DNA from: Seison nebaliae
Taxonomy: Eukaryota; Rotifera; Pararotatoria; Seisonacea; Seisonidae
NCBI GenBank assembly: GCA_023231475.1
Contig: JALJEE010000288.1
Location: forward strand, 1-64,000
Length of the DNA stretch: 64,000 bases
Direction: 5' to 3'
Position 1 is the stretch's first letter. Each line of letters begins with the position of its first letter. Shown here piece after piece: positions 3,539-58,925 of this stretch. A program made the translations under genes and the position numbers. The notes under the pieces are model-generated. The model was not told the DNA's origin. It was given only the letters and a program-made list of their open reading frames with translations, and did not search any database.

Positions 3539-4226
3539 TTATTTCACTGCAGACATTCTCCAAAGACCATCGTTCAAATAATGGACAAGATCAATTGCAA
3601 TGCCTTTGTTAACTTCTTGTATTTTTTCGCTGGACATCCTCATACGTCCAATGGCCATTGCATGTTCTTTCCCTTCAGCCATAATGGCGACATATTCGTC
3701 TTCATCGATATTAGCTTCTAATTTCGCTCCTGTTGATGTCAATCCCGGACACATAATATTTGCACCTGATATCACGAATTTAATTGCTCCTTTGTCAACT
3801 TGTTGTCTGGTCATCATTTGAGGATCTGAAAGAGAATAAATTTGTCTTGTAAAATTATGAACCAACATTGATGTAGTAATTGCAATGTGGGAATGAATGG
3901 AGTACCTTTGGATCGAAAAAATTGTGGATTGCCTTTGAAATCACAAAGAATTTCTATATGATCCGTACTTGATTTGAAGAAAGATAAAATTTTATACAAT
4001 TATAAATTACAAACCATTTTGCAATTTTTGCAACTTCTCTCTTAGGGAAAGCGATATTCATATAGGATGTCAGAATTGGATATCTTCGAATAATCTTCTC
4101 TTTGACCGTTTTCAAATCATTTCTCTTCATCTGATTACAGGTGCTAATGTTATCGTTGTCAACAAATCTTTAATGCTATCATTTAAATTAAAATTAAGAG
4201 ATTATAAGACGAAACTTTTTGAACAT
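3539..4226 (-). CDS. MCTS1: MCTS1 translation re-initiation factor (PUA domain)
   Basis: MCTS1 pairs with DENR to recycle 40S subunits and support re-initiation on the ribosome. I assemble four exons on the minus strand: 4226-4216, 4167-4015, 3967-3867 and 3825-3539. They give 183 residues, against about 181 in other animals. The joined N-terminus starts MFKKF, and the C-terminal exon carries the PUA core ([36 protein letters not shown]). The first coding exon is only 11 nt. The introns are 48, 47 and 41 nt and begin GTTTCG, GTTTGT and GTTGGT, so none has a GTAAGT-type donor. Each junction is fixed by frame and by alignment to the family. Confidence 0.95.
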
Positions 4227-4784
4227 TTCTGATTTGTAGCGAAATTTAATTTATCGTTTCCAATTTTTGCTAGTCGTTTTATTTTAATTATCTTCTATGC
4301 CTAAGTTCTGAAACTATTTGAACTGTGGAGAGTTATTTCAAAAATTATGGAATCTCACTACGACAATTCCATTCAGCAGAATATCATATTTACTCATAAT
4401 TATTATTTATATACTACTAGTTAACTAAATATTATAATTATTGTTATATATTACAATTATATATTTAATATTGAAGTTATTTATTGAAATAATGGAAGCA
4501 TTTATTTAACTTTCATGATTCCAAATTTAGAGTTACTTATATTCTTCCTTCATTGATATTGAAATTTCAAATATTTATAAAGAAATTTCTGTTGGAAAAT
4601 CAGATATTCACTAAATTATTATTATTAACCAAAGTATTCAATGTGAGAGTATCAATTAGTATATAAACCTAATTGGGAAAAGAAAGAACAACATACTCTT
4701 TTAAAAGAAATCAAATTTCATTTTTTTAATGTTCAATTTTAAGAAATTATTCATTTTCTACATTTTTTTAATTTCTCATTCCAG
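4227..4784. other. Gap between MCTS1 start and the next gene; may hold its missing 5' exon
   Basis: Very AT-rich, including long A/T runs at 4390-4480. It should contain the MCTS1 promoter and the unplaced first exon(s) of the cysteine-rich gene that starts before 4785. I could not identify that exon. Confidence 0.35.
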
Positions 4785-5243
4785 TTTGACAGTAATCGAT
4801 TTACATCGAGAATTAAAAGGTTTCATAACATTGTCCCAATTTGTCTAACCATCCGTTCATATAGGAAGGAATCATTGTAGTTGTGTAACAGATTTTACTA
4901 AAATTTGCACATGTTGCCTATTAGTTAATGAAGAAAATGGTTAGATGAATTTAGACAATTATGATTCTTAATTATAGGAACTTCAGAATGCTTGGTAATT
5001 AGTAAATTATCGGATAGATTAAGTTTGAAGTACAGTCGAGGTATGAACCAGATACAGATAGTGGATTTATTTCCTCAAAATCCAACTTTTACCAAATGTT
5101 TTCAAAAGAATAATAAACTGATTGTTTGTATTGTCCCGTTATTTGTGAAAGTTAAGGAGAATTTAGTAACCGGATGTTTCGTCACTTACGGGAATAATTA
5201 TCGAAAGAAAGATATATCAATTTGCTTTAATTTTATAAAATAA
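4785..5243 (+). CDS. Small cysteine-rich protein, DUF4773-like (5' end not found)
   Basis: Three exons, 4785-4819, 4865-4939 and 4978-5243, join in frame across introns of 45 nt (GTTTCA...TAG) and 38 nt (GTTAGA...TAG). The product (about 124 residues, partial at its start) reads GRNHCSC, then CTCCLLV, then single cysteines spaced to the end (SECLVIS, TKCFQ, VCIVP, TGCFV, SICFNF). This spacing resembles the secreted DUF4773 family, known best from arthropods and with no assigned function. An upstream exon with a signal peptide is expected but not seen. The stop is only 25 bp from the STPG2 stop on the other strand. No exon except the last contains a long open frame, so the gene is easy to miss. 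Confidence 0.6.
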
Positions 5244-55345: not shown

Positions 55346-56021
55346 TTTCTTTACTTTTGAAATTTAAGAAAAACTATTTATTTCTAAAGGAAGAAATTTA
55401 GGAATTAATAATTGGATGGAAGATATAAAATATCAATGGGTTCACACAAAATATTCTCCACATTTTACTGTTGTTGTTTGAATATTTGTAATTTAAAAAT
55501 TTTGAAAATTTTTTTTCGTACTGTCACAATTTCCTTTTTTTTGTTTAGCAGTTGTAAAGAATGTTAGAAAGAATAAAGCTACTCAATGAATGATCTAATA
55601 CTTCTCTAACATTATCAAAATAAATGTTTTAGACACTCTTATTACATTAGTTAAAGATGAATTATTTAGATAATATAATTCCATTTTATTCAATTTAAAA
55701 TAAATTATTAGATGAAATGAATAAAGAAATCGAAGGAAAAATGAAATAAATAAAATAAAGGTAGAGTAGAAATCCAGGAGAGAACATGATATGAAATATA
55801 AAATATTTTGGGAGAGAATATCAATAATACTTTAAGAATTATTCGAATGAACAATAAATAAATTGGGGATTGATTGATACAGTTCAATAAAATGATGCAA
55901 GTAAAATATGAATTCTTTTTCGTATATAATGTCGAATTCACTATGTCGAATGATCATTGGGATGGAAAAAGAAATATAAAAAATATTAAAGCTGGTAAAT
56001 GAGATGATTGTAGAGAAATGA
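55346..56021. other. Spacer between EBF 3' end and RPL9 start
   Basis: It holds the RPL9 promoter and the EBF 3' UTR. Long A/T tracts; no gene. Confidence 0.5.
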
Positions 56022-58925
56022 TTAGAATTGACAGATCGAATTGAATAATCGATCTTTTAACTCTTTTTCGTTGGTCGTACTGCTGTTGGTTGATGTTGTG
56101 CAATTGTCATTTGAAAGATTTTCACTACTGCTGCTATTGTTGTTGTTGTTGGCAAATGAGAGAAATGAATTTGAATAAGAATCGAAAGTTGAATCATCGA
56201 AGTTTTGACATTTCTTCTTTCCATCAGAAAATGAATCGAACATATATTTCCGTTTATGATTCCCACTGTTTCGTTCGTCACTTAAAACTGATTCTGAATT
56301 AGATAATGTATCAAAATTCAGATTTGAATCATTTAAAAGACAATCATTCGATTTATCTGATAAATAATCTTTCTTTTGGAAAGATGCTTCACCTGATGAA
56401 TAAGATGTGTTACCACTATCTAATAAATCTGATTTGGTTAAATTCTTATTATCTTTCGATTCTTTTATCATCAAATTATCAATGATACTTCGATCACCAT
56501 TTGACACTTTTTGTAATGCTGTCATCACAATCGATGCAGCTGTTTCATCATCATCTATTTGTAAATTCTGATTCAATCGTTTATCTTCCTCATCTTTTAA
56601 CTTTAAATTCATTTTTCTCGTTTGACTTCTATTCTTTTTCTTATTATCTAATTCAGTTTTCTCTTCTTTCACAAGGACTTGAGAATTATCATTTGGATTT
56701 GTTGTCGTGCTATTGTTGTTATTTATTGAGTTGTTGTTGCTATTATTGTTATGATAATCATTTAACAGACTCTCCATCTGCATAATATTATGGTAATTAT
56801 TATAATTACTATCTGATTCATGTTCGCTACCTGGTGGTGTTGGTAAGGAAAGTTGTTGTTGAACATGTGCAGCTTGAGCTGCAGCTACCATTTGCATAGC
56901 AGCCATATGTTGTTGAGCAATGTGAGCACTAGATTGTTGATTAGCTGCTTGATTTTGAGCTGCCTGTACACTAACCGAATACCATTGTTCAAGTAAATCT
57001 GCTGATCTTTTCAATATTTGTTCCTTTGATAATTTTTCCGGATCACCCGAATGTCTTGGTAACAATTTTTGTAATCGTTGAAAACCGTAATCAATCGATG
57101 GATCAGCTAATGCTAAAATAAGGAAATAAATAATAAAACATTAGAAATAAAATAAACCGATATAAACGAATCTTCCAGGAGTTTCTTTACTGAAATGTTT
57201 TCCTTTAAATGATAAACTTACATCAACAACTCCACCGGCATGACGTGGCGGTGTTTGCACACGAATGGCATGTGGTGTTACAACTTCACTCCAAACGAAC
57301 ATCGAATCGAAGACCACTTGTAATCCATCGAAGAAATTCTCTCCAATGATTGTGACTGTAGAACCACCAGTAATCCAACCTTCATTTGGTATCACACTTT
57401 TGATAACTGGAAGAGCTAAGATAAATAAAAAAAAAGTTAAATTAAGTCCGTTTTAAGTTCTATTAAGAAATAGTTGTCCATATGGTTTCTCTTAATTTCC
57501 TTATCTTTAATATCAATTTTCGTTTCTATTCTTTAATAAATGATTTTCCTTTTTAATAAATGAAGATGGTCCATCAATTTTAGGAAATCCGAAAATATCA
57601 AAGCTATTTTGACACTTTGTTGTCACCTTTCTTCACAGTTTCTTAATGCAACAAATAAAAATAAATCGAACAAATTTATCAATTTCCATCCATAAAATTT
57701 ATCGTTTTATCTTTCATTGATATTAGCTCACGCAAACATCAATAGATTTGACTTCAAAACTTCCTAACCGGCACTGTCATTTACGTCGAGTCTCTTTGAT
57801 CGTCGACCATGTTTTGAGTTATTGTGAACGAACATCGGTTCAGAAGTAGCCAGACTTAATTCGTCGTTCTCTAATCCATTTTTTAATGAGAGAACAACTT
57901 GGAATCGTCGCATGTCGCGTGGATTACCAGCATTTTTTAAGCAATTTTGATTACACTTAAGAAAGAATTTGAGGAAATATCTGAAATATGAGAAAGAAAT
58001 ATTTTATAAATTTAGATGATTAAATATAAACGAACCTATCAATAATTACAGGATCTGATGGAGTTTCATTTCGATTTCCACAGCTTTTCTTTTCGCTGCA
58101 TCTGCTGCACATGATTTCGTGTGTCAATAAGACTCGACACATTTCTGGATTTTTATCTTGTCCTTCGTAGACAATTGGCTGATAAAAGAATAGACGATAA
58201 AAACCATCGATAAAATGTACAATAAATGCAAATAACAAACCTGTTTGGTGACCGAATCGATCATTCTCACGAAAATATCTTGTTCCTGACGATGTCCTAT
58301 TTCGTCGAGTGATTAATGGATGGAAAAGGAAATTATTTGAATTGCTACTAACCACTACTATAAAGTAAAAGTAGACGATAATGTATTCCATTTTTATATT
58401 GAGGTTCTTCTGACTAATGTTTCAAAAGAATTATAATTGGATGAACAAAATTTTCGTGAGAAGGAATATTAACCGTATTAGTTGGAAGGAATCCGATGAA
58501 TGCAGTTCGTTCGATTTCGATTGGTTGTCCATTACGATCGTATAAAGCGACGACGAAATGGAAAAAATTACTCTTTCTCAAATTAGGTGGTGGTTGCTTT
58601 TCGAAATGTCCTCGAGCAATTGTCAAACTAAATATCGAAATCAAAATTTAAAAAAAAATGGAAATTATAATAACTTTGGATCGTCAGATGGTACCATATT
58701 GAGAGGATTGACTAAATTTCCTGATGAGATGTGTTGCATTTCACTCAGATTACAACCGACCATGTTCACTTTCCTTGCTGCCCAATAAGCAGCCATGGCA
58801 TGTTGTAAAGAAGTGACATTATGAGCGGAAGCTACTGCCATTTGTAATGGCATTCCGACGAGTGCTGCTGCAGCATTTGCATTGGCTGCCAGCACAGCGT
58901 CATAATCTTCTCGTTTATAATTCAT
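56022..58925 (-). CDS. EBF: COE/EBF (collier) transcription factor
   Basis: EBF factors bind DNA as dimers and specify neurons and mesoderm in animals. Eight exons, 58925-58675, 58627-58474, 58413-58353, 58296-58241, 58178-58036, 57980-57769, 57415-57158 and 57112-56022, sum to 2,226 nt (741 residues). An Ala-rich leader (1-83) precedes the DNA-binding domain: [20 protein letters not shown], then [16 protein letters not shown], with the zinc knuckle [14 protein letters not shown] (H-x3-C-x2-C-x5-C) intact, and [13 protein letters not shown]. The IPT/TIG domain (about 292-380) has [11 protein letters not shown] and RVQTPPRH. The HLH follows ([16 protein letters not shown]) with a single second helix. 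The tail is Gln/Ala- and then Asn/Ser-rich. Introns are 45-62 nt except one of 353 nt; all seven donors begin GTT. Confidence 0.95.

Follow-up and report, generated by a model that had tools for sequence, protein, structure and literature searches.

GTT donor sites and a matching base change in U1 snRNA genes of the rotifer Seison nebaliae

How does an animal splice introns that begin with GTT? This question is raised by a stretch of 64,000 nucleotides from Seison nebaliae, an epizoic rotifer. The stretch, hereafter the window, comprises bases 1-64000 of contig C177 in an assembly of 36.03 Mb and 846 contigs. The original prediction, made from the letters of the window, held that most of its introns open with GTT and none with GTRAGT, the canonical metazoan donor (5' splice site). 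Its favoured cause, named before any U1 sequence had been seen, was a changed 5' end of U1 small nuclear RNA (snRNA), with A opposite donor position +3.

U1 nucleotides 3 to 10 pair with AG/GUAAGU, and nucleotides 1-10 are described as unchanging between yeast and human (PMC4383343; the papers cited here by PMC identifier are represented by excerpts throughout). Nucleotide 6 therefore faces +3, and a U at +3 needs an A at nucleotide 6. We report that a preference for T at +3 is real wherever the genome was sampled, and that an A at nucleotide 6 (A6) occurs in three U1 copies, which looks like compensation. It is very probable, judging from these sequences, that in S. nebaliae the code by which U1 snRNA pairs with the 5' splice site of the major spliceosome has changed, a situation best read as natural co-evolution of the two partners.

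Donor sites and U1 snRNA genes

Donors were collected by two routes. In the first, 19 deposited Seison-named proteins (one + 12 + 6) were spliced onto the window or onto fetched regions with an aligner that leaves intron boundaries free and gives preference to GT and AG alone. This yielded 102 introns with a median length of 48 bp. Once they were cut out, all 19 proteins were restored exactly, and every intron had a single protein-keeping GT...AG placement within 8 bases. All 102 are GT-AG introns, though the aligner favours such boundaries and the annotation probably does too.

The donors begin with GTT in 92 cases, GTA in 4, GTC in 4 and GTG in 2. GTRAGT is absent, as predicted, and GTTAGT occurs 8 times. 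The canonical metazoan preference for A or G at +3 (4 A and 2 G here) is thus not seen, nor is that for G at +5, present in 30 of the 102 introns and in 13 of the 36 in the window, about the third that had been anticipated. Elsewhere in the donor, A occupies +4 in 47 introns and T occupies +6 in 55, and about half of the bases at +7 to +9 are T. Exon ends carry A at -3 in 54 cases, at -2 in 68 and at -1 in 47, with G at -1 in 29. The description of the exon side as not AG-rich fits the scarcity of AG at -2,-1 (14 of 102) and of G at -1 and does not fit the excess of A at -2. The balance of these donors is therefore unusual beyond +3 as well, with about 30% G at +5 and A-rich exon ends. Acceptors are ordinary (TAG 55, CAG 25, AAG 22), again as described.

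The second route used an ab initio gene finder whose donor model is GT alone, blind to +3 to +6. It was trained on long open reading frames and applied to the window and 25 ten-kb regions. Requiring genes longer than 450 nt and flanking exons of at least 60 nt on both sides retained 175 of 259 predicted introns. Among the 129 short ones (35-99 bp), +3 is T in 115, A in 5, C in 6 and G in 3; among the 46 of at least 100 bp, which in our view are mostly spurious, it is T in 16. Outside the window GTT opens 96 of 107 short introns, and inside it 19 of 22. The finder misses much, since 12 of its 22 short window introns match the 36 deposited ones; of the remainder, one GTC intron is contradicted by the EBF model and 9 are unconfirmed.

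The sequence background of these introns was examined directly. T follows GT with a frequency of 0.41 in all sequence, 0.57 inside the blind introns (107 sites) and 0.485 (130/268) inside the deposited introns. The +3 excess has binomial p values of 2.6e-25, 1.9e-13 and 3.9e-19, respectively. Information content is 1.01 bits at +3 and 0.07-0.17 bits at +4 to +10. Composition as the sole cause of GTT was rejected on the GT background inside introns.

Nine junctions were compared with homologues. Genes are named after the original prediction, after Pfam accessions with names that we presume, or by our own assumed labels. In CARS1, four homologues align without gaps at the junctions of residues 76, 108, 190 and 624, as do, at residue 14, the three that reach so far. 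Upstream of the junction at residue 665 a single residue is missing from one homologue, and the junction at 142 lies within a variable stretch. One of the two RPL9 junctions is gap-free, and at the second a single extra residue is present in one of four homologues.

Other searches around the introns were negative. G at -1 was not significantly associated with non-GTT donors (5/10 against 24/92, p 0.14). Enriched 5-mers within introns gave no clear branch-site box, and a spliced-leader-like string had a single unconvincing match within the fetched loci. None of the 102 donors had the form GTATCCTT or ATATCCTT, which we take to be the U12-type donor consensus.

The Rfam model RF00003 identified at least four U1 loci above its cut-off (97.4-112.9 bits against 69.5), all of full length (positions 1-166). 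In three of the four, U at position 6 is replaced by A, the base that had been predicted. U1a (contig C208, minus strand) and U1b (C647) share the tail AUACUAACCUGG, while U1c (C762:47440-47598) has the tail AUACUAACUUGG, in which C9 is also changed to U. The fourth, U1d (C208:6576-6739, plus strand), has the tail AUACUUACCUGG, is the only copy with the ancestral, canonical AUACUUACCUG, and has an A6 copy as its neighbour on the same contig, about 1.5 kb away. A search pattern built from the Sm site and stem-loop 4, in which the tail was ignored, found the same four loci and gave nothing in its control, so an extra U1 with another tail could have been missed only if its stem-loop 4 were different. 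A tail-based pattern found five places including these four; its reversed control also found five, so it offers no proof alone. The fifth place, on C629, was rejected as a U1, with no Rfam match in the locus at E up to 0.1.

Several features suggest that these loci are genes. The three A6 copies show 0-1 differences from one another in their first 12 nt and 51-55 in the 145-147 positions of the body (35-38%), which suggests that the tail, A6 included, is maintained. In the cloverleaf, whose structure was predicted from the same alignment of four sequences, 16 of 41 pairs are changed on both sides, a number reached in none of 500 shuffles. The snRNA 3' box AATTAAACTTT, which begins 9-19 bases beyond the modelled ends of the snRNAs, is exact after U1a, U1c, both U4 copies and U5. 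It has one mismatch after U1b and U2b, and two of 11 after U1d and U2a, the best-scoring U2; among 6000 random stretches, 257 have two mismatches or fewer. The loop AUUGCAC, which we take to be the U1A site, is intact in all three A6 copies and reads AGAGCAC in U1d. We infer that the A6 copies are putative working U1 snRNAs that carry out donor recognition.

The pairing of these tails with the 102 donors in fixed register looks like compensation. Among 27 single substitutions at U1 positions 3-11, U6A raises the number of fixed-register Watson-Crick pairs most, to 5.31 from 4.45 of 9. In addition, A is the most frequent base at -1 and U9 of U1c would pair with it; by duplex energy U1c is better than U1a on 69 donors and worse on 29.

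A separate observation concerns the tail AUACUAAC of the three A6 loci. It contains UACUAAC, presumably the yeast branch-site box, which is complementary to GUAGUA of U2. Pairing between U1 and U2, or between donor and branch site, is possible on paper.

Alternative explanations

A number of points weigh against a changed pairing code. The donors cover about 0.31 Mb of the 36 Mb genome (10 regions for the deposited set and 26 for the blind set), and the deposited gene models, from which introns were read, are annotation products. In the snRNA searches scoring was confined to the best candidates (41 of 293 for U1), so copy numbers are lower bounds. In free register, duplex energy places A6 third among single changes, behind U2G and U6G; by the same measure the canonical tail is better on 32 of the 102 donors, A6 on 59, with 11 ties. 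We gave more weight to the fixed-register result because the register is presumably fixed by the small nuclear ribonucleoprotein (snRNP), and the energy result still stands. The canonical U1d scores 112.4 bits in the covariance model, close to the 112.9 reached by the highest-scoring A6 copy, and mismatches in its 3' box are no more numerous than in that of the best-scoring U2. It also ranks second of nine in the promoter-region (proximal sequence element) score, a comparison made uninformative by U5 and U4a, which look random-like. Finally, all U1 copies, A6 copies included, are known here from their genes alone. We lean towards U1d being a relic or a minor U1; a working role for it is quite possible, since U2a shares its box mismatch count and its promoter score is second of nine.

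The driver of the +3 preference could instead be a changed protein (U1-C, LUC7, SNRNP27K or Prp8) or altered U6 methylation, with U1 following, an explanation that we consider unlikely. The original prediction had likewise listed a changed U1C/LUC7-type stabiliser and a reliance on U6 or exon definition. These options have gained no support so far: the U1-C zinc finger looks intact and is, we presume, close to the human sequence, the ACAGAGA box is unaltered in the one U6 that was found, and G at +5 is not raised. SNRNP27K also looks normal and keeps QYMNRKGGFNRPL in its core, and the genome has a METTL16-like match and one LUC7 locus, both known by match only. In the human structure U1-C makes no base contacts (PMC4383343). 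The precedent for protein control comes from yeasts, in which METTL16 and SNRNP27K correlate with the preference at +4 and U1 is unchanged (PMC10581693).

Other spliceosomal components look normal as well, including U5 loop 1 GCCUUUUACU, the U2 pairing element GUGUAGUAUCUG and U4. By eye, the two introns of the U1-C gene begin with GTTATA and GTTTTT. A genome-wide search for U12 snRNA gave no match, but its controls were equally silent. A third U2 copy (C796, L037 1501-1702) has a low score of 78.7 bits and no 3' box, and looks like a pseudogene.

We give little credence to the idea that the A6 loci are pseudogenes and that the canonical copy is the sole working U1, with the U-U mismatch at +3 tolerated. 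Its best arguments are the normal tail of U1d and the covariance and promoter-region scores given above, together with the report that U1-C improves binding of oligonucleotides with U at +3 to human U1 snRNP (PMC4383343). However, it is U1d that has lost the AUUGCAC loop, and its two 3' box mismatches compare with 0, 0 and 1 in the A6 copies, a weak contrast given that the best U2 also has two. A tail shared by three pseudogenes is not expected, and a mismatch would not turn U at +3 into the preferred base.

An account by neutral drift, in which GTT reflects T-rich short introns, U1 pairing has relaxed and A6 has drifted in redundant copies, has similarly poor prospects and is already largely refuted. 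It can draw on the AT content of about 69% in the genome sample, on the T-richness of +7 to +9 and on the frequency of T after GT inside blind introns. Introns of chlorarachniophyte nucleomorphs, moreover, reportedly lack any obvious 5' motif beyond GU (PMC6461891). Against it stand T in 90% of donors at +3, in excess of both intron backgrounds, the concentration of information at that position, and the retention of A6 in three copies that differ so widely elsewhere.

That the junctions are misplaced by a few bases is barely credible: many also allow protein-keeping placements without GT-AG, but every intron has only one GT-AG placement nearby, and most of the nine compared with homologues lie in gap-free conserved alignment. 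The alternatives and the proposed change do not wholly exclude one another.

Introns and other features of the window

The original prediction had placed 49 introns in 13 genes of the window. Of these, 36 introns in 7 genes were recovered from deposited proteins, and only those were compared; 34 begin with GTT, one with GTC and one with GTA. The GTT counts that had been claimed for single genes were reproduced (CARS1 7/7, EBF 7/7, MCTS1 3/3, STPG2 7/8).

On the minus strand, MCTS1 (deposited protein P0164) has introns at 3826..3866 (donor GTTGGT), 3968..4014 (GTTTGT) and 4168..4215 (GTTTCG). STPG2 (P0149), also on the minus strand, has them at 5511..5557 and 6210..6254 (both GTTATT), 6357..6400 (GTTAAA), 6641..6683 (GTTGGA), 6831..6878 (GTTTGA), 7056..7100 (GTTAGT) and 7157..7207 (GTTCAA), with an exception, GTCTAA, at 7277..7319.

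The tektin gene (P0155, plus strand) has an intron of 886 bp at 43462..44347 (GTTAGT), the GTA exception at 44553..44616 (GTAGAT) and further introns at 44727..44766 (GTTTTC), 44952..44997 (GTTTCC), 45142..45185 (GTTTCT) and 45409..45456 (GTTCTC). An EF-hand (MICU-like) gene on the same strand (P0151) has introns at 48776..48837 (GTTGGA), 49620..49672 (GTTATT) and 49799..50223 (GTTAGT), the last of 425 bp.

The introns of CARS1 (P0001, plus strand) lie at 52142..52186 (GTTTTT), 52373..52425 (GTTCCA), 52522..52565 (GTTATT), 52668..52714 (GTTCAT), 52859..52902 (GTTAAA), 54205..54250 (GTTTTT) and 54374..54424 (GTTCGA). The exon 52891-54303 of this cysteinyl-tRNA synthetase gene has 99% identity over 93% of its length to SNEBB_009733 of S. 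nebaliae. On the minus strand, RPL9 (P0162) has introns at 54995..55039 (GTTCCT) and 55244..55299 (GTTCTT), and EBF (P0146) at 57113..57157 (GTTTAT), 57416..57768 (GTTAGG, 353 bp), 57981..58035 (GTTCGT), 58179..58240 (GTTTGT), 58297..58352 (GTTAGT), 58414..58473 (GTTAAT) and 58628..58674 (GTTATT).

Other introns come from the blind finder only. A plus-strand gene without a deposited-protein check has four, at 24170..24221 (GTTTCA), 24448..24499 (GTTAGT), 24616..24664 (GTTTCA) and 24855..24898 (GTTAAT). Two lie on the minus strand, at 38443..38503 (GTTCTC) and 39373..39423 (GTTTTT), and the other three of the 9 unconfirmed introns were predicted at 1019-1104 (GTT), 35804-35876 (GTG) and 61330-61388 (GTC).

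The window also holds open frames that we take to be like a MULE-type transposase (221-1413, plus strand) and a Tc1/mariner-type transposase (2468-3173, minus strand). A long open frame at 46760-48403 (plus strand) presumably resembles METTL14, a partner in the mRNA m6A methyltransferase.

Possible origin and comparison with other systems

If U1 has changed together with the donors, recognition would proceed through GUU at +1 to +3, aided by A at both -2 and +4 and by U at +6, with G at +5 contributing weakly. U6, U5 and Prp8 would accept U at +3, and the unchanged-looking U6 ACAGAGA box, U5 loop 1, U1-C and SNRNP27K would have to tolerate it. A-rich exon ends would suit the U-rich loop 1 of U5 and may carry weight lost at +5. 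The change would most likely have begun with U at +3 as a tolerable mismatch to a normal U1, drifting or spreading in very short AT-rich introns. A6 arising in a duplicated U1 gene would then have made U the best base at +3, and feedback would have drawn the remaining donors after it. U1d would be left as a relic, or as a minor U1 for the few GTA and GTG donors.

More tentatively, the U1 set may be divided. Two A6 copies would read GUU, the A6/U9 copy on C762 would suit exon-end A at -1 (47/102), and the canonical copy would serve some of the approximately one-tenth of donors that are not GTT. If so, this is an animal whose U1 paralogues with different tails share its introns, either while a recoding across the genome is still under way or once it is over.

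U1 suppressors of donor mutations have been engineered in the laboratory. The proposed compensation in Seison is of the same kind, but natural. The principle, by which a second change in U1 makes it pair again with an altered donor base, is mentioned in PMC11732430. What is proposed for Seison is still the known pairing of U1 to the donor; only the code would be new. Seison resembles the canonical metazoan system in its GT-AG introns, full U1 cloverleaf, Sm site and normal-looking U6, U5 and U2, and differs from it in having A6 in three of four U1 copies and in preferring U over A or G at +3.

Shifted donors have been described in other lineages. In Saccharomycotina, ACUUACC is invariant wherever a U1 candidate was found (227 of 230 species, plus 9 of 10 outgroups) despite a switch between A and U at +4 (PMC10581693). 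Both cases are lineage-wide and concern one donor position, but in the yeasts the position is +4, proteins correlate with it and U1 is fixed, whereas in Seison the position is +3 and the change extends to U1. The donors of Entamoeba histolytica are described as extremely conserved GUUUGUU, and its U1 snRNA as absent or not found (PMC6085484, PMC13292270). U at +3 in short introns is common to both organisms; unlike Entamoeba, Seison has a U1, and it has little G at +5. A fresh U1 search in Entamoeba may be deserved. Among animals, Fritillaria borealis also has shifted splice sites: 95% of its introns escape GT/AG and its U1 5' end is strictly preserved (PMC13326754), whereas the sampled Seison introns are GT/AG and U1 has changed.

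A further parallel is the diplonemid S. specki, in which no donor shift clearly matches the U1 change: an altered U1 copy has a C stretch and a complementarity to the donor logo about equal to that of the normal copy, and according to the authors it may indicate adaptation to degenerate donors (PMC12621601). Both organisms have natural U1 copies with an altered 5' end, but in Seison a single base matches a donor shift in about 90% of sampled introns. ACUUAC is retained in Giardia, and the motif is likewise present in two nucleomorphs and in Stentor (PMC3510501, PMC6461891, PMC9505925). Beyond the diplonemid, none of the literature matches listed, in which subscription journals are mostly uncovered, concerned the splice sites of Seison or a U1 tail that had changed naturally in step with its donors. 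The excerpts of the Seison genome paper deal with two lineages, compact genes and intron span and do not mention splice sites (PMC8351084), and alternative splicing of Seison lamins is treated elsewhere (PMC10125929).

The U1 5' tail has been treated as fixed, presumably since every intron depends on it simultaneously, and in the excerpts cited for yeasts and tunicates the donors shifted and the tail did not. Gene finders tuned to GTRAGT would perform badly in Seison. If the proposed change is correct, Seison would be a system in which to time and order the steps of recoding, and one that tests how far U1 pairing, as opposed to U6 or proteins, sets the donor sequence. Tail and donors moving together would then mean that the core splicing code is rewritable in an animal.

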